Positions 28,345-51,377 of a stretch of DNA of 64,000 nucleotides are shown piece after piece (position 1 is the first letter of the stretch; each line of letters opens with the position of its first letter). The notes below the pieces were generated by a model. It had not been told where the DNA came from. It made no database searches and saw only the letters and a list, made by a program, of their open reading frames with translations. Position numbers and translations under genes: made by a program. The DNA comes from Proteobacteria bacterium UBA7415 (GTDB lineage Bacteria; Pseudomonadota; Gammaproteobacteria; Arenicellales; Arenicellaceae): the NCBI GenBank assembly GCA_002470515.1, contig DKML01000031.1, positions 124,001-188,000 on the forward strand, read 5' to 3'.

Positions 28345-29868
28345 ATGGTAGATCTGGTCAAAAGCAATCCTAGAGCGGTCTTCGCGCTCATTTTAATTAA
28401 TATCCTTCTGTCCCTATGGGCATATTATGCTGACCCCGTAATTAATAACGATGGCATCGTATATCTATCCGTCGCACAACTTCTGCTTGATGGCAACTGG
28501 AGCGGCGCTATCGAAGGATACAGCTGGCCGTTTTATCCTGGCCTAATTGCTTTAACTTCAAAACTGTTTTGGGTCGACCTTGAGCTAGCCGCTTACCTGT
28601 TAAATGGTTTTCTAATTATTCTACTAACCTTAGCCTTCACTAGCGTGGTTGGCGAATTGTCTGGCCATGACCGCCGGATCATGTTGATAGCGTTAATAGT
28701 GGTTGTATTATTTCCGAGCATCACTAAGTATCGAGCCCTAATCATTAGAGATTTTGGCTATTTAGCGCTCTACCTTTGGTCGCTCTACTTTTTGTTGCTT
28801 TTTTGCAAGCAGCCCAAAAAACAATATCTTATCGGATGGATAATTTTGGCGGCAACAAGTTGCTTATTCCGGTTCGAAGGGATCGCTTTTCTAATCGTAG
28901 CACCCTACTTTTTAGTCCTTTTCATTGGACAAGACTTACAGCATCGGCGTGCCATATTATTAGGCAGCGCCGTCGGGTTATTCGCTGCGGCCGTTGGCTT
29001 GCTCAGCTGGTATGTACAGTCTAAGTATTCCGCATCCATTATCGAAGCGGGCCGAGCAGGCCTTGAAGTCAGCTCGCTTAAAGATTTGTTTTATTACAAT
29101 TTGAGTCATCGCTACGGCGATGAAGTCTTAACACCCTTCGGCTTATTCACGGCGTTAGCTGGAACCACTGGCGATGTATTCTATGAAACAGTACGACGAC
29201 TTGCGGTCGTTTATGTGCTCTTCGCAGCCTATGCCCTTTATGTTGGTCTAGTGCTGGAAAAACCGATCATGAAGAAAATTTGGATCGTCTACGTTGTCAC
29301 TAATCTCGTTTTACTCGTTGGTTTTAGCCTCTTTAATTCATTTTTGGTAAGTCGCTACACACTCGCAACAGCTCTCACGGTCTTGTTATTGGCGCCCTTT
29401 GCAATTAATCGACTATTGTTGCGTTGGCCGCACGTCAATTGGGTCAAAAAGGCATTGATTGGATTTGCTTTGTTTATCGTAACTGTCGTGTCCTTAGAAG
29501 GTTTGGATGTTTCAACTAACAAGCGCTTTGTACGTGAAGGCGGTGAGTGGATGGCAAACAACTTGCCTAAAGATTCAAGCATTTACAGCAACAGTAGAAT
29601 TGCCATCTTCTACTCAGGGGCCTCGGTCAAGGAAAACTTGGGGGAAGAATATAGCAACCCAAGATTTGCACACTACTTGCAAACTAAGCATTTGAACAAT
29701 TTTGACTTTATCGCTTTAGAAGTAGATCTAAATTCTCAGCTAGAAAACCGCTTTCGTCAGACACTGGGGTTCAAGTATGGCCTGCCTGTGAATGTCTTCG
29801 AAGGCGAAAAAAATCGCGTTTTATTTATTCACTCCACAAAAATGTGTCCTGCAGCTACAGTATACTAA
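28345..29868 (+). CDS. GT-C-like integral membrane protein (glycosyltransferase family 39 type)
   Basis: 507 residues with about 10-11 hydrophobic segments and a soluble C-terminal part of about 100 residues. The first loop carries PVINNDGIVYLSVAQLLLDG, an Asp-containing motif placed like the catalytic Asp of PMT/ArnT-type GT-C transferases that use polyprenyl-phosphate sugars. TKYRALIIRDFGYLALYLW and CLFRFEGIAFL are also reminiscent of that group. The donor and acceptor are unknown. The neighbour metallophosphoesterase lies 60 nt downstream on the same strand. Confidence 0.6.
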   Translation: MVDLVKSNPRAVFALILINILLSLWAYYADPVINNDGIVYLSVAQLLLDGNWSGAIEGYSWPFYPGLIALTSKLFWVDLELAAYLLNGFLIILLTLAFTSVVGELSGHDRRIMLIALIVVVLFPSITKYRALIIRDFGYLALYLWSLYFLLLFCKQPKKQYLIGWIILAATSCLFRFEGIAFLIVAPYFLVLFIGQDLQHRRAILLGSAVGLFAAAVGLLSWYVQSKYSASIIEAGRAGLEVSSLKDLFYYNLSHRYGDEVLTPFGLFTALAGTTGDVFYETVRRLAVVYVLFAAYALYVGLVLEKPIMKKIWIVYVVTNLVLLVGFSLFNSFLVSRYTLATALTVLLLAPFAINRLLLRWPHVNWVKKALIGFALFIVTVVSLEGLDVSTNKRFVREGGEWMANNLPKDSSIYSNSRIAIFYSGASVKENLGEEYSNPRFAHYLQTKHLNNFDFIALEVDLNSQLENRFRQTLGFKYGLPVNVFEGEKNRVLFIHSTKMCPAATVY

Positions 29869-35328: not shown

Positions 35329-35497
35329 TTTGTAACGTATCTTTACGCGTTTATGGCGTTAAGAGTATTTGGAGGGCGCGCGACATTCGGAAGGCCTTAG
35401 GTATATTGAAGGGGCAGAGTGATCAATAGAGCACAACCGAGTTTTCCATAGCGTTAGTTTAAACAGTGCCAGTATTATTGTGTGCGAGTATAAAAGG

Positions 35498-36652
35498 ATG
35501 AGCCAAACAAAAGCTGAATATCGTCCAAAGTCAGCGTTACTCTTAGGTGGGGGTGGCGCAAGAGCGGCCTATCAAGTTGGCGTTCTCAAGGCTGTTTCAG
35601 AGCTTTGTGACACCGAAAAAGGTAACCCCTTCCCGATTATTTGCGGTACTTCGGCTGGATCAATCAACGCCCTAGCGCTGGCATCTTTTGCACACGATTT
35701 CCAACTCGGCGTGAATCAAATATTGGGTGTCTGGTCAAACTTTAAAGTTGGCATGGTATTCAAGGCTTCCGCCGGAAGTCTGACATCGAGGATATTCAAC
35801 TGGGCGTGGTCCAATCTCGCTTTTGGCAACCCCAATAAGGGCCCCAGCTCATTACTTGATAACAGTCCTTTAAAGGGTCTATTGCAGCGCACGATTAGCT
35901 TTAAAGGGATCGAAAGTTCTTTAGAAAATGGTCATCTGCACGCCTATTGCGTAACCGCCTGCAGCTACACTACAGGGGAGTCTACAACGTTTTACGATGG
36001 CCACGAGGACATTAAAGACTGGCATCGCACTCATCGTGATGGTAGGCGAAGAACGTTGAACATCGACCATCTAATGGCGTCCTCAGCGATTCCTGTAATA
36101 TTCCCATCAGTACCGATTGGCAATGAACACTTTGGCGATGGTTCCATGCGCCAAGGCTCACCTATTAGTCCTGCCTTGCATCTTGGCGCCGATAAAATAT
36201 TGATAATTGGCTTGCGCATCGCAAGCGATGATCCAGTACCACCCCTTAGCCCTCCGCGGCCATCGCTCGGGCAAATATCGGGTTATGTAATGGATACGCT
36301 TTTTCTAAACAGCTTACGAGCTGATTTAGAACGCCTTGAACGAATTAATCGAACGCTAGAAAACGGCATTACAGAAGGTCGACTCACAGATGAAACGGGC
36401 GAGTTAAAGATCATTGAGCACATGTTAATCAGTCCATCCGAAGACATTGCGAACATCGCACAAAAACACTACAACGATTTACCCCGAAGCTTCAGGATCG
36501 CCTTGAGGTTTTTGGGCATGAAAAGAGGCAACAGCCGACGCTTGATCAGCTACCTTATGTTCACCAAACATTTCTGCAAAGAACTGATTGAACTAGGCTA
36601 CAACGATGCAATGAGTCAACAAGAAGAACTAAAAGCGTTCTTAGACGACTAG
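35498..36652 (+). CDS. Patatin-like phospholipase
   Basis: PNPLA-family lipid acyl hydrolase, 384 residues from the ATG at 35498 (a GTG at 35480 would add six; neither has an ideal ribosome site). Oxyanion motif: LLLGGGGARAAYQVGVL; nucleophile serine in the GTSAGS elbow; catalytic Asp in FGDGSMRQ. The C-terminal 150 residues are helical and belong to the bacterial patatin subgroup. No signal peptide, so it acts inside or at the inner face. Substrate unknown. It converges with the LPS core cluster. Confidence 0.85.
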   Translation: MSQTKAEYRPKSALLLGGGGARAAYQVGVLKAVSELCDTEKGNPFPIICGTSAGSINALALASFAHDFQLGVNQILGVWSNFKVGMVFKASAGSLTSRIFNWAWSNLAFGNPNKGPSSLLDNSPLKGLLQRTISFKGIESSLENGHLHAYCVTACSYTTGESTTFYDGHEDIKDWHRTHRDGRRRTLNIDHLMASSAIPVIFPSVPIGNEHFGDGSMRQGSPISPALHLGADKILIIGLRIASDDPVPPLSPPRPSLGQISGYVMDTLFLNSLRADLERLERINRTLENGITEGRLTDETGELKIIEHMLISPSEDIANIAQKHYNDLPRSFRIALRFLGMKRGNSRRLISYLMFTKHFCKELIELGYNDAMSQQEELKAFLDD

Positions 36653-36694: not shown

Positions 36695-36772
36695 TCAACG
36701 GGTGTATAAAAAGCAGATCCCTCACGGGTGTAAATAAAACGCAGAGCCTTCTGGGGCGTATATAGAAAGATC
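36695..36772. repeat. Imperfect ~29-bp tandem repeat, three copies
   Basis: Three diverged units beginning ACGGGTGTATAAAAAGCAGA, ACGGGTGTAAATAAAACGCA and GGGGCGTATATAGAAAGATC follow head to tail between the lipase stop (36652) and the end of the kinase gene (36771). No terminator hairpin is apparent between these two convergent genes. Confidence 0.45.
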
Positions 36773-37475
36773 AGCGCAAAAACTCAAACAGTTCCAGCAC
36801 CTGCGGTTGGTCTTGCCAATTTTTCAAGAATCGCCTACGGTCTTTTCGGTTCGCCTTCTTCCAGCTCTTTTTAGCCGTATGCTGATGCGCAGCATCAAGA
36901 TCAATAAGAGCAATATTTTTACCATCCCATAACAAGTTCGTTGCCTTCATATCTCCGTGACTAAGCGAGAACGCTTCAAACCGTTCAAACATATCACGAA
37001 TAGCCACCACAACTTGATCTTGCTCGGCACGCTCTAACTTGGGCAAGGCCGCTAGTAATTCCTGTCCAGCAAGCTTTTGCGTCGCAAAGAACGCGTCTAA
37101 GTTAAACATAGCAAACCGTTGTTCATGCATCATATAAGGCTGCGCAACAGTAAGACCCGCTTGGCCAAACGTAAAGCTCATATGCCAACAGCGGTTTGCT
37201 CTGGTCTTACGAACCGCACGCGATACCCGATGCCATTGCCCCTTAGCGTTATACCGTTTGAGAACAATGTTTTGATCTGGCTTGTCGTCCAGCGCCACTA
37301 CGCTAACCGTTGTAGTTCGATCGTTTTTCAATACTACCTTCGCCACCTTACCTTTCATAAGCAATTCGGCAATGTCATCAACACCGCGAGGCATCAGTAC
37401 CGCACTCCAGCAACTGCTTGTTCGCAACGACTGATTACTTAAATAACGGGCACTCAACCACTCAGGAACGGACAT
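36771..37475 (-). CDS. Kdo/InaA-type lipopolysaccharide kinase family protein
   Basis: Protein-kinase-like fold phosphotransferase, 234 residues from the ATG at 37475 (a TTG at 37490 would add five). The catalytic loop LSHGDMKATNLLWDG and metal site ALIDLDAAHQH are clear; the ATP lysine may be in NIVLKRYNAKG. It is a shorter relative of the WaaP/KdkA/InaA family, so it probably phosphorylates Kdo or another inner-core sugar. It is the last gene of the waaF-waaC-waaGP set, 63-79 nt after the fusion gene depending on the start. Confidence 0.72.
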   Translation of the reverse strand: MSVPEWLSARYLSNQSLRTSSCWSAVLMPRGVDDIAELLMKGKVAKVVLKNDRTTTVSVVALDDKPDQNIVLKRYNAKGQWHRVSRAVRKTRANRCWHMSFTFGQAGLTVAQPYMMHEQRFAMFNLDAFFATQKLAGQELLAALPKLERAEQDQVVVAIRDMFERFEAFSLSHGDMKATNLLWDGKNIALIDLDAAHQHTAKKSWKKANRKDRRRFLKNWQDQPQVLELFEFLR

Positions 37476-37553
37476 ACATACGTCCCGCAACTAAATAACA
37501 GCTAAAAATAGAAGGTTGTTTACGGCAGCTTTTTGCGAAATAAAGTGAAACGA

Positions 37554-39692
37554 TCACTTACCCACCACACGATCAATCGTGATCGCGTCTTTATTCTCTG
37601 ACGATTGATACGTAGATTGGCTAACATCGGGCGTTTGCTCTCCACGCACCTCATTACGATGCGCATCTAAGTCAGCGGGTGCAATTCTAGCCACCTCAGC
37701 TGTCGCTTTCTCGTGGGCTTTTCGTTTCTCTGATTCGTAGAGACGGTTTCCGCGAGACTCCACTTTGCGCCAAAAACCTCTTTCGGTTTCCAATATTTCG
37801 CGCAAGGGCTTACCGCGATACAGACGCATAAATCTCAGTAAATCGCGCTTGGTCAAACCAATGTCTTTACTGGAATAATACAAGCCCGCAATGTCCTTTA
37901 CTGCCCAACGCTCAGGAGTTTTTCGGCGCAACTGTATTCGATGTAAATCAATTAAGTACAATTTACTTTCCGAGGCTATTTGTTCGTCGTCACTGAAATG
38001 CACGTCCAGCAAAAAGTGACACAAATAAAAATCGCGATGGTTGGCTCCATTCTCGTGAATAACTCTAGCCGTCTCGACAACTTTGTTCATTATCCAGCGT
38101 TTTAAACGAAACTCTTTTAACGTACGAGGTGGCTCAGTTTTCCACTTTTCGCAATAGTCTTCTAAACTTGTCTCTGTGGGCAGTGCCTCTGTGACAATAA
38201 ACGAATTCTTAGTTGCAGGATTACGACCACGAATACCGTATGCGGCAACGGTCATCGTATCAATCTCGAGATCTTTAAGTCGATGCACGCCATGCCATTC
38301 GTTAAGAGCTCCAACGACGGGGGCACGCAAATAAGTGATGTTTTTAAGGATCTCGCCCCAACCCACGCCGGTATGCGCTTTAAGAAAATAGTCTTTATCA
38401 CCACGAGTAAATCGTAAAGTACGTCGCCCTAACGCTTCGCGGTAGACTTTACCTTCTATATTCATGATGTCCCAAAAACTATCGTGCCCCTTTAAGCCTT
38501 GACGCAATTCGTTATGGATATATAGAGATTCGTCGTGCTCTATACGCTGCTCTGTACTTAGATAAAGAGTCTTCTGCGCACAAGTCTGTTCGATATAATC
38601 TACAGCGCGTTTTGGCATCACGTAAAGACTAGAGTCTTGACCGTATTTCAAGCCGTTTTCACGCCACTGCTCTTTCTCTTCAGACAACAACATTTCTAAA
38701 AGCTTCTCGTTAAGCTCGTCTTGTGTGAACCGTTTGCGCAGCACAACACCTGCTTCAGCTGTTTTAATGTGAGGCGCGTATCCGCAAACTGGCGTAGCAA
38801 GAACAGGCAGACCAGATACGATTGCTTCTAAAAGAACACCACCTGTTGTTTCCGCGTAAGCAGGATGCAACAACATATCGCCTGCTTTCATTAGGGCTGG
38901 AACGTCTGTGCGTCCACCCAAAAAATGTATCCGGTCGGCTACGTCTGCACGCTTGGCGATTCGTATAAACTGCTCTCCTTTGTCTTGCCCAACAACAAAC
39001 AACTTAGTCTTTTGTTGTATCTCTTCGGGCAGAGCTGCTATTGCCAAAATTGCTCTATCCAGTCCCTTAGTTTGAAAACCCGAACCAATGAGTAGCACCA
39101 AATTTTCGTCGTCCTCAACGTCTAAAGACTTTCGAATCTGCCTTCGATCAGGCAGCTCATCCAAGTTAGCCCAACGTGCTTTTTCTAACGTAGGAGGCAA
39201 ACATAAAAAGCGGGAGTCCTGAGTTAAGTAATACTGCTGGTAAATAGCTTTCTCACGGTCTGACAACGACAAAATATTGGTCTTAGACGCGGCCTCAAAC
39301 ACACCGCGCTCAAAGCTGGAGAAGTATAAAAAGCGAGGGGTAAATCGATAAAATATTGAGTGGCGCAAGAAAGATCGACCGACATAACAGTAGTCGCCAC
39401 AATAATAGATATCCATGCCTGGAATCTTATTAAAACCTACCACGACGTCAAAATCTTTGGGGTCTAAGTGGTGGCGTAATTTTCGATGAAACGAATGCGC
39501 GCGGGTATGATTGGTAAACCCAAAATGCTTAACAATAACAACCTTTATACCTTCTGGAACATCGCCCTCCCAACTGCCAGTAAAGACCGTTGCTTGATGG
39601 CCACGCTGCGTGCACTCGTGAGCTATCCGCAACATGTCTAAAGACAAGCCGCTGTACGGAAAATGTTTATAAAGACAAAAAGCAAAATGCAT
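37554..39692 (-). CDS. Fused LPS glucosyltransferase I (WaaG) and heptose kinase (WaaP)
   Basis: A 712-residue protein carrying two LPS-core enzymes. Residues 1 to about 375 are a GT4 transferase closely following WaaG: start MHFAFCLYKHFPYSGLSLDM, then VVGFNKIPGMDIYYCGDYCY, FVVGQDKGEQF and DMLLHPAYAETTGGVLLEAI. From about residue 405 it follows WaaP: RRTLRFTRGDKDYFLKAH, TSLEDYC, NHRDFYLCHFLLD with the catalytic Asp, and LYLIDLHRIQLRRKTP. A charged tail of about 50 residues ends the protein. In E. coli waaG and waaP are separate adjacent genes. Domains look complete, so both glucosylation of heptose II and heptose phosphorylation are plausible. waaC lies 25 nt upstream. Confidence 0.9.
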   Translation of the reverse strand: MHFAFCLYKHFPYSGLSLDMLRIAHECTQRGHQATVFTGSWEGDVPEGIKVVIVKHFGFTNHTRAHSFHRKLRHHLDPKDFDVVVGFNKIPGMDIYYCGDYCYVGRSFLRHSIFYRFTPRFLYFSSFERGVFEAASKTNILSLSDREKAIYQQYYLTQDSRFLCLPPTLEKARWANLDELPDRRQIRKSLDVEDDENLVLLIGSGFQTKGLDRAILAIAALPEEIQQKTKLFVVGQDKGEQFIRIAKRADVADRIHFLGGRTDVPALMKAGDMLLHPAYAETTGGVLLEAIVSGLPVLATPVCGYAPHIKTAEAGVVLRKRFTQDELNEKLLEMLLSEEKEQWRENGLKYGQDSSLYVMPKRAVDYIEQTCAQKTLYLSTEQRIEHDESLYIHNELRQGLKGHDSFWDIMNIEGKVYREALGRRTLRFTRGDKDYFLKAHTGVGWGEILKNITYLRAPVVGALNEWHGVHRLKDLEIDTMTVAAYGIRGRNPATKNSFIVTEALPTETSLEDYCEKWKTEPPRTLKEFRLKRWIMNKVVETARVIHENGANHRDFYLCHFLLDVHFSDDEQIASESKLYLIDLHRIQLRRKTPERWAVKDIAGLYYSSKDIGLTKRDLLRFMRLYRGKPLREILETERGFWRKVESRGNRLYESEKRKAHEKATAEVARIAPADLDAHRNEVRGEQTPDVSQSTYQSSENKDAITIDRVVGK

Positions 39693-39717: not shown

Positions 39718-40785
39718 TTATACGCCTATTGCCCGCTCGCGGGCGCTAATTTGATGAACCAGCGATTGCCAGATGGATTCGACCGCAAAGGTTGCGTAAC
39801 AAGGCGGCTCAGTAACACCATCGCCTAACTCACTACACGTTTTGGATAAACAAGGGGCACACACTATTTCGGCCTGAAGTTGCATTTGAAACCGCCCGTA
39901 CGTTCCCGTCAGTGCTGGGTCTGTTGCCCCGTAAATCGATACACACGGAACATCCAGAGCCGCGGCTAAATGTCCTAACCCCGTATCAACCGCTATTGCA
40001 CCAGACGCATCGCAAAGAATAGCCGCTAGCTGAGTCAGCGAGGACTTAGGCAATACTACCGCACCTTCAACATGCTCGGCGATTCGTTGAGCACGTTGAT
40101 GCTCAATATCGTTGCCCCAGGTTAAAACCGGCGTATAGCCATTATTGAGCACTCGCTCTGCAATTCGATACCAAAGAGTTTCAGGTAGGTGCTTGGTTGC
40201 CCAAGTTGTTCCGTGAAATAGAAAGACAGACTTCTTAGCAATAAGTCTATTCTGCGCGCCTTCTTTTGTATCGAAGCTTGTTTTGATTGAGTAACTTCGT
40301 CGTATTTCAGGTGTCTGAGCATCAAATGCGCCACAGATTAATAGTCGCAACCGCTCAACAGCATGTTCGTCGCGTGACACAGCTACTTTATTTGAATACA
40401 ACCAGGCAGCGGGTGACTCTTTTATCGAGTCACCCGAATATCCGATTCTTTGACCACCTGGTACGAGGCGCGCGAGGCGCGCAAACGCGGCACTCTTCAT
40501 AAGACCCTGAGCGTCGATGATGTAGTCATACGGCACCTTTCGCAGTGATTTAAGAAACGCTCTAAAATCCCCATAATTGGCACGCGACCAGCGCCTCCAG
40601 CGTCGAGTAGCCACTGGAATAACTCGGTCAACAAGAGGATGCCACGATGGAATATCAGAGAAACTTTCTTCAACCATCCAATCAACCGACAACTCTGGAA
40701 CATGCTCTGCAAGATCTTCAAGCGCTGGTAGAGCGTGCAATACGTCGCCCATCGACGTCATTTTTACGATCAATACCTTAGTCAT
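39718..40785 (-). CDS. waaC: LPS heptosyltransferase I
   Basis: GT9 transferase adding the first L-glycero-D-manno-heptose to Kdo2-lipid A, 355 residues. The N-terminus VLIVKMTSMGDVLHALPAL and VDWMVEESFSDIPSWHPLVD follow WaaC closely. The donor-binding half contains AIAVDTGLGHLAAAL and SIYGATDP. A C-terminal Cys cluster (CAPCLSKTCSELGDGV, CYATF) is notable but of unknown meaning. It overlaps waaF by 4 nt (ATGA) and precedes the WaaG-WaaP fusion. Confidence 0.94.
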   Translation of the reverse strand: MTKVLIVKMTSMGDVLHALPALEDLAEHVPELSVDWMVEESFSDIPSWHPLVDRVIPVATRRWRRWSRANYGDFRAFLKSLRKVPYDYIIDAQGLMKSAAFARLARLVPGGQRIGYSGDSIKESPAAWLYSNKVAVSRDEHAVERLRLLICGAFDAQTPEIRRSYSIKTSFDTKEGAQNRLIAKKSVFLFHGTTWATKHLPETLWYRIAERVLNNGYTPVLTWGNDIEHQRAQRIAEHVEGAVVLPKSSLTQLAAILCDASGAIAVDTGLGHLAAALDVPCVSIYGATDPALTGTYGRFQMQLQAEIVCAPCLSKTCSELGDGVTEPPCYATFAVESIWQSLVHQISARERAIGV

Positions 40786-41831
40786 GGCCTTTTTCCCACA
40801 TGCGGCGCAATAACCTGTTGTGACTCTTTAATAACGCTATCCGCACTTAATTGCCTTAAACAATTCAAATGTTCTAAAGGGCATTCGCGCTTAAAGCAAG
40901 GGCTGCACTCAAGATTGAGCCACGCGATTTTATGGTTGTGACTCAAAGGCGGAGTATGTCTAGGGTTGGTTGAGCCATAAACGGCTACAAGCGGTACTGA
41001 TAAGGCCGCCGCTATATGCATAAGCCCGCTGTCGTTACTGACGACTAAATCAGCACAAGAGAGTAAGTCGACCGCTTCGGGCAAGCTCGTCTTACCCGCC
41101 AACTCATGGCCCTGCTGATCGATGACGTTATTTATGTAGGCACATGTTTCCTGATCCTTAGCGCTACCTAACAACCAAACTTGCCAATCCAAATTTAGAT
41201 AATGCTCAGCCACTTTCGCGTAGTGCTCTGCCGGCCACTGTTTTGATGCCCCAAACTCCGCGCCTGGACACAATGCAAGAATCTTAGCTGAGTCTTTTAA
41301 ACCCAGCTGTAGGCGCAGGTCACTCACCATCGATGCAGATGTTTTTAAGGCCGGCGGCGGCACTTGTTCTCGGGCTCTTGGCAAGGCGTCTGGCGATTCG
41401 CCCAGCGCAATAAAGCGCTGCACAGTCATAGGCCAACGTTGATTATCTAGTGAACGAACATCATTAAGTAAACCGTAGCGTTGTTCGCCGAGCCAGCCAG
41501 TACGCATCGCAATACCCGCAAACCACGGAACCAATGCGGCCTTAATAGAATTAGGTAGCACAATCGCTTGAGTGAAACCTTGCTTAGCAAGCTGCCTTGC
41601 CACTTTCCAGCGCTTTGATAAGCCCAGCTCACCGTGCACAAAATCCACAGCAATCAGAGAGCTAACCTCAGGCATGCGGTCTATCAAAGCCGCAGTCCAT
41701 GCAGGCGCCAAGATATGAATCTCAACAGAGGGTTCGCGGTGCTTAAGGTCAATGCAAAGGCTTTGCGCCATCACCATATCACCCACCCACGAAGGCCCTA
41801 CAATTAGAACCTTGTTTGCGGCCTTGCTCAT
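40782..41831 (-). CDS. waaF: LPS heptosyltransferase II
   Basis: GT9 transferase adding the second heptose to the inner core, 349 residues, typical length. Family marks: VLIVGPSWVGDMVMAQSLC at the start, LCPGAEFGASKQWPAEHYA, and VSNDSGLMHIAAAL with AVYGSTNPRHTPPLS. The C-terminal CSPCFKRECPLEHLNCL Cys motif is common in WaaF. First gene of the core set; it overlaps waaC by 4 nt. ilvE lies 68 nt upstream on the same strand. Confidence 0.94.
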   Translation of the reverse strand: MSKAANKVLIVGPSWVGDMVMAQSLCIDLKHREPSVEIHILAPAWTAALIDRMPEVSSLIAVDFVHGELGLSKRWKVARQLAKQGFTQAIVLPNSIKAALVPWFAGIAMRTGWLGEQRYGLLNDVRSLDNQRWPMTVQRFIALGESPDALPRAREQVPPPALKTSASMVSDLRLQLGLKDSAKILALCPGAEFGASKQWPAEHYAKVAEHYLNLDWQVWLLGSAKDQETCAYINNVIDQQGHELAGKTSLPEAVDLLSCADLVVSNDSGLMHIAAALSVPLVAVYGSTNPRHTPPLSHNHKIAWLNLECSPCFKRECPLEHLNCLRQLSADSVIKESQQVIAPHVGKRP

Positions 41832-49847: not shown

Positions 49848-50735
49848 ATGAAAATTCCGCTCATACCAAAGCATCGTCGTGCCTTTTACGTTAGCTCTAT
49901 CGCCATTGTTGCAGCCTTTTTGTTCAATTCTTGTACACATGCCGGACCTAAATCAGACCTTTGGGATTTTTGGGAGAATTCAAACTCGGCAGAATCAAGG
50001 GAGTCTAGCCAAACCAGCATTGATCATTCGACATGGCAAAGCTTTCTAAACGAATATCTAGTAACCAACGATCCTAGCGGCATTAATTTAGTTCGATACG
50101 AAGCCATTGCTACCCAAGGTTCACAGGGACTCAACCTACTCAATCAGTATATTGCATCACTCGAGGCGGTTGACCCACGCTCTCTAAGTAAAAATGAACA
50201 GTTCGCGTACTGGGTTAATTTATACAATGCTACAACTGTTCGAGTTATTGCTAACGCCTATCCCGTTAAGTCTATTCGCAAAACAGGTAAAGGCTTGTTC
50301 TCGTTTGGACCATGGGATGATGTGGTGACTCAAATCGCTGGCAAAGGAGTGACGCTTAATGATATTGAGCACCGCATACTCAGACCCTTCTGGAAAGATT
50401 CAAGAATCCATTTTGTGGTTAACTGCGCCAGCATTGGATGCCCCAACTTGCACCAAACAGCACTCACCGCAGACAATCATCAAGTGATTTTGGACCAGGC
50501 AAGAAGGTCGTTTATAAACCATCCTCGCGCTGTTAGCGTAGCCAATGGCGAGCTGCACTTGTCATCAATTTTTGATTGGTACGCTGATGATTTTGGCAAC
50601 AGCCAATCCGAGGTTCTTGAGTACTTGGCAACTTACTTAAACCGTGAAAGGTCGGATTCAATATTGAGCGTTATTCAACAGCCCAAAGCAGATGTAAAGT
50701 ACAGCTATGACTGGAGTTTAAATTTAGCTAAATAG
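49848..50735 (+). CDS. Exported DUF547 protein
   Basis: 295 residues. An N-terminal hydrophobic segment (YVSSIAIVAAFLFNSC) could be a signal peptide; the Cys has an atypical lipobox (FNSC). The DUF547 core is clear: NEQFAYWVNLYNATTVRVIA, GVTLNDIEHRILRPFWKD, IHFVVNCASIGCPNL and LSSIFDWYADDFG. A conserved Cys lies in NCASIGC, which has led others to suspect a transglutaminase/peptidase-like activity; this is not established. It starts 6 nt after the SDR gene. Confidence 0.8.
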   Translation: MKIPLIPKHRRAFYVSSIAIVAAFLFNSCTHAGPKSDLWDFWENSNSAESRESSQTSIDHSTWQSFLNEYLVTNDPSGINLVRYEAIATQGSQGLNLLNQYIASLEAVDPRSLSKNEQFAYWVNLYNATTVRVIANAYPVKSIRKTGKGLFSFGPWDDVVTQIAGKGVTLNDIEHRILRPFWKDSRIHFVVNCASIGCPNLHQTALTADNHQVILDQARRSFINHPRAVSVANGELHLSSIFDWYADDFGNSQSEVLEYLATYLNRERSDSILSVIQQPKADVKYSYDWSLNLAK

Positions 50736-50741
50736 TCCAAG

Positions 50742-51377
50742 TCACTCACATTTGAACACCAAGCACTGGTTATTGGCTGGCATTGCAATGTCTTCAATCA
50801 AAGTCAAACCAACATCTACAGCCAATCCTACTATCCACTCTATTTCTCTGATTGCGCTGCCAACGCCCCGACTACGCAAAGAAAGATCGAACCCAGCATT
50901 ACTCTCACTAGTAAATTCTCCCGCATAACGAAAAGGTCCGTAGACGAACAAGACGGAGTGCTGCTTGATGCGATGCGATAACCCTTTGAAAAAATTCTCA
51001 ACCGCTCCTGAGTCCATAATGTGGAATGTGTTGGCCGTAAACACGGCGTCGTATAGAACCGTATCAGATGCCGCTTTATTCAACCAGTCATCGCCATTTA
51101 CATCCAACTCAAAAGGAGCCTGCAAATTGGCTCGCTCTGCGCGTTTAACTCGCTCTCTCAAATGCATCAAATAGTCGTGCTGGTCGGCTGTTTGCCAATG
51201 CACTTTCGGCAGTTGTTGAGCAAAATATTCCGCGTGCTGACCCGTTCCTGAACCAACTTCCAATACTCTGGTTTCGCCCTGCGCTAAGTGCTTTTTCAAC
51301 ACTTCGAGAATCGGTGCTTTATTGCGCTCACACGCCTCTGAGTGAAGCAGATTAATTAGTTCGATACCTTTGTTCAT
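50742..51377 (-). CDS. DUF938 family methyltransferase
   Basis: Putative SAM-dependent methyltransferase, 211 residues. The N-terminus SEACERNKAPILEVL and the SAM motif VLEVGSGTGQHAEYFAQ define the DUF938 family. FTANTFHIMDSGAVENFF and YGPFRYAGEFTSESNAGFD are conserved family positions. The substrate is unknown. It converges with the DUF547 gene and precedes ggt on the other side, same strand as ggt. Confidence 0.85.
   Translation of the reverse strand: MNKGIELINLLHSEACERNKAPILEVLKKHLAQGETRVLEVGSGTGQHAEYFAQQLPKVHWQTADQHDYLMHLRERVKRAERANLQAPFELDVNGDDWLNKAASDTVLYDAVFTANTFHIMDSGAVENFFKGLSHRIKQHSVLFVYGPFRYAGEFTSESNAGFDLSLRSRGVGSAIREIEWIVGLAVDVGLTLIEDIAMPANNQCLVFKCE

Follow-up and report, generated by a model that had tools for sequence, protein, structure and literature searches.

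A WaaG glycosyltransferase and a WaaP heptose kinase joined in one reading frame in the Arenicellales and, it seems, several times elsewhere

The gene waaGP, a 712-codon open frame on the minus strand (positions 37554-39692, ATG start and TGA stop) of the 64,000-nucleotide stretch of DNA analysed here (the window), is predicted to encode a complete WaaG-type GT4 glycosyltransferase (residues 1-367) and a complete WaaP-type kinase (about residues 387-655), with about 16 non-conserved residues between them. It very probably specifies a single bifunctional enzyme of the lipopolysaccharide (LPS) inner core, in which a flexible tether provides proximity and stoichiometry. The fusion is the rule in the order to which the window belongs and is rare elsewhere, since it occurs in 53 of the 59 matched genomes of the order compared with 8 of 46 in a sample of the class and 1 of 31 in a sample of the phylum. 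The initial annotation described the frame without giving its strand; frame 1 of the plus strand contains many stops over the same interval. Features described below lie on the minus strand unless otherwise indicated.

Pfam, PDB and Foldseek comparisons match both halves and NCBIfam matches the kinase half, in agreement with the initial annotation of a WaaG and a WaaP fused in one frame of 712 residues. The WaaG half (38592-39692) includes a Pfam Glycos_transf_1 domain (residues 182-347, 102.6 bits with a cut-off of 26.4) and matches WaaG chains in the PDB (for example, 8b5s, 8b5q and 2iv7) over residues 3-367, with E values from 6.3e-99 (Pseudomonas aeruginosa) to 5.5e-98 (Escherichia coli). 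The WaaP half (residues 397-653, 37734-38504) matches the P. aeruginosa WaaP chain 6dfl over the same residues with an E value of 9.5e-68. The domain search that had been proposed as a check also places WaaP models on the C-terminal half: NCBIfam NF011703, 'core heptose(I) kinase RfaP', covers residues 390-660 (341.3 bits, cut-off 170) and the Pfam Kdo/WaaP kinase model covers residues 412-625 (144.7 bits, cut-off 21.3). The two halves cover the solved WaaG and WaaP almost end to end. An AlphaFold model of the waaGP protein, based on an alignment of 56 fused sequences, has a mean pLDDT of 86 and a pTM of 0.79. Its pLDDT is 68 in the linker blocks (residues 371-390) and below 50 in residues 683-712. 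Foldseek ranks six WaaG chains at the top and the WaaP chain seventh, with TM scores by target length of 0.91-0.94 and 0.87, respectively.

Compared with WaaG (RfaG) of P. aeruginosa and E. coli (8b5q/8b5s/8b62/8b63, 2iv7/2iw1), the fold, the length, the EX7E motif and residues K209, D19 and D100 are the same, and the difference lies in the attached kinase. Residues 103-132 of E. coli WaaG, which we take to be its membrane-contact region, align with the window protein without gaps. Similarly, WaaP (RfaP) of P. aeruginosa (6dfl) has the same fold, the same nine catalytic or substrate residues and the same basic ACP-contact patch as the kinase half, which differs from it in lying behind WaaG, in having no start of its own and in carrying an extra, unconserved tail.

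The earlier statement that both active-site sets are intact is borne out for the residues that were checked. Those compared for WaaP are the nine whose mutation is described in passages of PMC6147952 (K51, E78, H161, R162, D163, Y165, H168, D188 and R191). All nine are present in the window protein and none varies among 16 diverse fused proteins. They include the ATP-binding lysine K438 (38379-38381; K51 of P. aeruginosa WaaP in PMC6147952), the HRD catalytic motif H552-R553-D554 (38031-38039) and the Mg-binding aspartate D582 (37947-37949; D188 of P. aeruginosa WaaP). Conservation of R162 is weak evidence, since the R162A mutant of the P. aeruginosa enzyme is almost normal according to the same passages. 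The positions that contact ACP (K140, R141, R221, R222, R226, R229 and R237) are basic in seven cases out of seven (K531, R532, K615, R616, R620, R623 and R631 in the window protein), those of R221 and R229 being the most variable among relatives. In the WaaG half, all 16 fused proteins share G15, L16, D19, K209, E281 and E289 (the last two delimit the E281-x7-E289 motif at 38826-38852), and D100 is found in 15 of the 16.

The identity of the sugar donor is a separate matter. Five positions are described in passages of PMC10579960 as switching P. aeruginosa WaaG between UDP-GalNAc and UDP-glucose: Y97, T208, N282, T283 and T285 define the P. aeruginosa (UDP-GalNAc) type and F97, R208, A282, A283 and I285 the E. 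coli (UDP-glucose) type. The window protein has Y97, T208, T282, T283 and G285. It therefore agrees with the P. aeruginosa type at three of the five positions (Y97, T208 and T283) and with the E. coli type at none, and the term 'glucosyltransferase' used in the initial annotation must be considered unproven. All 56 proteins in alignment A2 have T208; R208, D205, A283 and I285 of E. coli WaaG are not kept. The donor pocket is nearer to that of P. aeruginosa WaaG, yet T282 and G285 differ from it. Judged by these residues, an N-acetylhexosamine donor would be at least as likely as glucose.

Judged by its neighbours, the fused gene evidently occupies the position that waaG and waaP have where they are separate, following waaF and waaC and preceding the gene for a second kinase. 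The same-strand order of the inner-core genes is waaF, waaC, waaGP and kin2. The heptosyltransferase II gene waaF (40782-41831; TIGR02195, 439 bits, cut-off 135) has a 4-base overlap with the heptosyltransferase I gene waaC (39718-40785; TIGR02193, 323 bits, cut-off 185), which lies 25 bases upstream of waaGP. Downstream of waaGP, kin2 (36771-37490, first in-frame ATG at 37475) encodes a second Kdo/WaaP-family kinase (PF06293, 53 bits, cut-off 21.3), which scores 50 bits with the KdkA model, under the cut-off of 142. waaGP is a single-copy gene in this genome (98.5% complete), where the sole other match is a weak glycosyltransferase. Long flanks are available for 31 fused loci of the order, some of which represent the same genome twice. 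A heptosyltransferase gene is present within 2.5 kb upstream in 26 of the 27 with enough upstream DNA, and kin2 within 1 kb downstream in 28 of the 30 with enough downstream DNA. Most of these relatives (L060, L079 and others) have roughly 1 kb of other DNA between the heptosyltransferase gene (waaC) and the fused gene, compared with the 25 bases in the window.

A patatin-like phospholipase gene (35480-36652, plus strand) also occurs near the locus in L060, L069, L079, L121 and L124. The window includes, in addition, genes whose assignments are weak or of unknown function at 28345-29868 (plus), 49848-50735 (plus) and 50742-51377 (minus), the similarities concerned being PMT_2-like (below cut-off), DUF547 and DUF938.

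Separate waaG and waaP neighbours (in Pseudomonas, Pectobacterium, Endozoicomonas and others) have the same gene order and strand as the window fusion and, in some pairs, share a frame with a single stop between them. They differ from it in specifying two polypeptides, waaP having its own start, in many cases with a ribosome-binding-like motif.

The distribution of the fusion within the order was surveyed in 92 genomes at least 80% complete, using a match threshold of E <= 1e-30; 59 matched and 33 did not. Both halves are in one frame in 53 of the 59 (51 near full length and two as partial matches), and the fusion is kept in these while identity to the window protein drops to 38%. The initial annotation had suggested looking for the same fusion in relatives, and here it is found. 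In the others, the fused frame is broken inside the WaaG half (G011), the gene is cut by contig ends (G453 and G459), WaaG is joined to another kinase (G024) or the genes are unfused; the unfused cases, G432 (WaaG only) and G434 (WaaG with a stop, and WaaP on a different contig), belong to one genus. The G011 gene (L069:1113-3241), in which two overlapping frames divide the WaaG half, may be a pseudogene or the product of an assembly error. An even sample of the class gave 46 matches in 370 genomes at E <= 1e-40, with eight fused in one frame, four in the genus of the window and four outside it; in G316 the halves are joined but the frame is broken in the kinase half. An even sample of the phylum gave 31 matches in 397 genomes at E <= 1e-50, only the window itself being fused; G582 has two matches with a 705-residue frame, yet proved unfused on checking.

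In a homologue search both domains are present in each of the best 120 of the 486 homologues listed (the window protein included), a result that is not a frequency since the search filters by length. Among these best 120, three are on contigs of 3.3-5.2 Mb, one is named as coming from an isolate, Arenicella sp. 4NH20-0111, and the named close homologues are Arenicella, with 81% identity. Where they are named at all, fused proteins are named after one half, either RfaP or WaaG glucosyltransferase (P0004, P0007, P0019, P0033, P0064 and others), and database names of this type hide the fusion.

The best 80 of at least 574 matching loci were also compared. The 29 fused and 51 other loci among them do not represent a frequency because the sample is biased to same-frame neighbours; the 51 include L141, which has WaaG alone at a contig end. 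An extra upstream domain was considered for L017, where the stop-to-stop frame is 989 codons long, and rejected: the first 309 codons match no Pfam family at E <= 0.01 and are therefore taken as a chance open stretch. One subclade (L063, L064, L065, L094 and L097, in which L063/L094 are one sequence twice, as are L065/L097) has an insert of 25 residues in the kinase half, following the DLHR motif, as well as an additional stretch close to where this half starts. In G158, the fused gene is immediately followed by another gene of the WaaP family (G158:C3:107593-108225), which outscores the fused kinase half for PF06293. Pseudomonadales-type MAG loci (L095:4911-7256, L131:4935-7259, L135, L140, L142 and L153) have two WaaG-like copies and a separate WaaP behind them. 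The two GT4 copies are in one open frame by Pfam in L095 and L131, and there are long frames in L135, L140, L142 and L153.

The same fusion seems to have arisen several more times outside the order. In a careful tree of the WaaG and WaaP domains (mixture model, 55 hand-chosen rows of 104), the 16 rows of the window's order form one all-fused clade (100/100), and nine other fused rows are scattered among 30 unfused rows. These nine comprise two of one family (one of them from a genome whose title reads Legionellales), a MAG labelled Cellvibrio together with its two relatives, and four others. The tree has six state changes (90% of bootstrap trees have 5-7), and well-supported branches force at least three of them. 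A single change is found in 0% of 200 bootstrap trees; a quick tree with all 104 rows needs seven. A single origin of all fused genes was rejected by an AU test (log-likelihood 129 lower, p-AU 3.2e-57), a result to be taken with caution in that four fused rows are long branches (L034, L035, L066 and L129) and the group was defined after the tree had been seen. The trees omit 14 redundant Pseudomonas loci, 14 WaaG-only loci, duplicates and rows with a short half, including G011; L045, which has a broken kinase half, counted as split in the quick tree and is absent from the careful tree. The method gives no direction of change; since the genes are more widely found unfused, gains of the fusion are the simpler interpretation. 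Such recurrent joining hints that WaaG and WaaP work best side by side.

Two regions of the protein are not conserved. The linker (residues 371-386, 38535-38582) has a mean pairwise identity of 0.11 among 56 fused proteins, compared with 0.59 and 0.64 for the two halves, and its length varies from 11 to 21 residues; across lineages, 0 to 37 residues separate the end of the WaaG match from residue 396. The lack of conservation and the variable length argue for a tether over a precise channel. The charged tail of about 50 residues noted initially is present (residues 656-712, 37557-37727; 22 of 57 residues charged, histidine counted) but is not conserved, its mean pairwise identity being 0.18 and its length 13-72 over the 56 fused proteins, and a functional role for it is unsupported.

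On the evidence of a scan for start codons, the kinase has lost its own start in the fused genes. An identical 38-codon stretch at the kinase start was scanned in 56 distinct fused and 60 unfused genes (two broken fused genes being excluded), and a stretch further inside the kinase served as a control. None of the 56 fused genes has an in-frame ATG with a Shine-Dalgarno-like motif ahead of the kinase, compared with 24 of the 60 unfused genes (control, 4/56 and 4/60); after thinning to 85% identity, the counts are 0 of 40 and 9 of 45 (control, 2/40 and 4/45). If any start (ATG, GTG or TTG) with the motif is accepted, the counts are 5/56 and 40/60 (control, 6/56 and 20/60), and the five fused genes correspond to about the control rate. 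The loss of internal starts of the ATG-plus-motif type supports one polypeptide and hence a 1:1 ratio. The fixed ratio claimed initially therefore follows on condition that a single polypeptide is made.

Two other explanations of the frame concern whether one chain really exists. That a sequencing or assembly error removed a stop between two genes is barely credible: the single frame is also present in the 53 genomes of the order and in other listed homologues. Since it recurs in dozens of relatives, a missed stop is ruled out for the lineage, and the resequencing initially proposed is not needed to exclude it there. It is also improbable, if less extremely so, that two products are made from the frame, with the kinase half appearing alone as well through internal initiation or cleavage of the linker. 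The variability of the linker and its lower model confidence would suit such an arrangement, as would the in-frame ATG of any kind that occurs in the 38-codon stretch of 17 of the 56 fused genes (43 of 60 unfused). However, no such ATG in the fused genes has the Shine-Dalgarno-like motif, compared with those in 24 of the 60 unfused genes, and a stretch scanned separately in the window gene offers only a TTG before residue 404, again without the motif.

A further explanation accepts the single chain and questions its benefit. Adjacent and often same-frame genes may simply have lost a stop, both jobs being done with no advantage from proximity, and the order may have inherited one event. We consider this neutral origin an appreciable possibility but do not favour it. 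It shares its anatomy with the bifunctional-enzyme reading and differs on the benefit only, and the confidence accorded to the two overlaps. In L103 and L113, both from Pseudomonas, an ATG comes directly after the stop of waaG and reads in the same frame into waaP; all rows of the window's order group in one clade, which may reflect one event; the linker is unconserved; and a fusion without kinetic benefit would look identical. On the other hand, neutrality must accommodate the three or more forced state changes, retention of the fusion in most matched genomes of the order despite the fall in identity, and a sister family that keeps WaaG joined to a different kinase.

For the bifunctional enzyme that we prefer, the two protein families suggest the following scheme. 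The protein would be a single membrane-associated enzyme at the inner face of the inner membrane. Its WaaG half would attach the first sugar of the outer core, a hexose or N-acetylhexosamine, to heptose II of the molecule built by the waaC and waaF enzymes. The kinase half, on its tether, would use ATP to phosphorylate heptose I of that same molecule. Fusion would guarantee equal amounts of both activities and would keep the kinase where its preferred substrate is made. Most likely it would have originated by loss of the stop between adjacent co-directional genes together with loss of the kinase start. Passages of PMC6286764 and PMC4483631 describe WaaG as acting on HepII and WaaP on HepI, two different heptoses, and the channelling of the core intermediate suggested initially is unsupported. 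Those of PMC6286764 indicate that both WaaP and WaaY of E. coli depend on the sugar added by WaaG, WaaP keeping some activity without it, whereas the introduction of PMC4483631 places WaaP, WaaQ and WaaY before WaaG. The initial proposal that the two enzymes act in succession stands to the extent that the steps are linked (PMC6286764), but these passages disagree on their order. Since the two steps share one acceptor, tethering is plausible without strict channelling, and we read the fusion as providing proximity and stoichiometry through a flexible tether rather than a rigid channel.

The sister family, represented by only two genomes (G024 and G034), carries WaaG in frame with a different Kdo/WaaP-family kinase. 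These kin2-type fusions are located at L067:2921-4837 and L068:3596-5515, both on the minus strand. The fused kinase has 33-35% identity with kin2 of the window over 187 residues (117 and 106 bits), compared with noise level (best E value 0.03) for the WaaP half. It falls below the KdkA cut-off, and that of G034 also falls below the RfaY cut-off. In G024 (96% complete) no match to the window WaaP half was found at E <= 1e-3, and a different contig (C19) carries one more kinase of the Kdo family; in G034, at 75% completeness, an absence means little. The genes of G024 run in the order waaF, waaC, about 1 kb, waaG::kin2. The same arrangement would result if a WaaG-WaaP fusion had existed earlier and a deletion had run through it into kin2. 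The dependence of both WaaP and WaaY of E. coli on WaaG, as described in passages of PMC6286764, fits a shared need of the kinases to adjoin WaaG.

No WaaG-WaaP (glycosyltransferase-heptose kinase) fusion was seen among the papers listed by searches of an open-access library. The gene is a conserved and recurrent (convergent) bifunctional form of two well-known enzymes. HldE and the two-domain LgtF of Campylobacter are multi-activity LPS enzymes. Like these and WaaA, waaGP would use one polypeptide for successive steps of LPS assembly, with different activities. WaaA, the Kdo transferase, is presented as a multi-activity LPS enzyme in passages of PMC6286764. P. aeruginosa WaaP is reported, in passages of PMC6147952, to need acyl-ACP for solubility. 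For structural studies of this kinase, which by itself is difficult to keep in solution, the fusion offers a construct made of one chain.

The several joinings of WaaG to WaaP, together with the one joining of WaaG to a kin2-type kinase, would point to a general physical complex. We would suggest, tentatively, that the C-terminus of WaaG may be a repeated docking site for LPS core kinases and that a general WaaG-kinase complex may exist at the inner membrane, also where the genes are separate. Fusions that recur in nature are a classic sign that two proteins are physical partners, so that a WaaG:WaaP complex is directly testable in laboratory E. coli. The fusion would be more interesting as a sign of such a general complex. 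If this is true, core extension and core phosphorylation would be coupled in space, also in species with separate genes.
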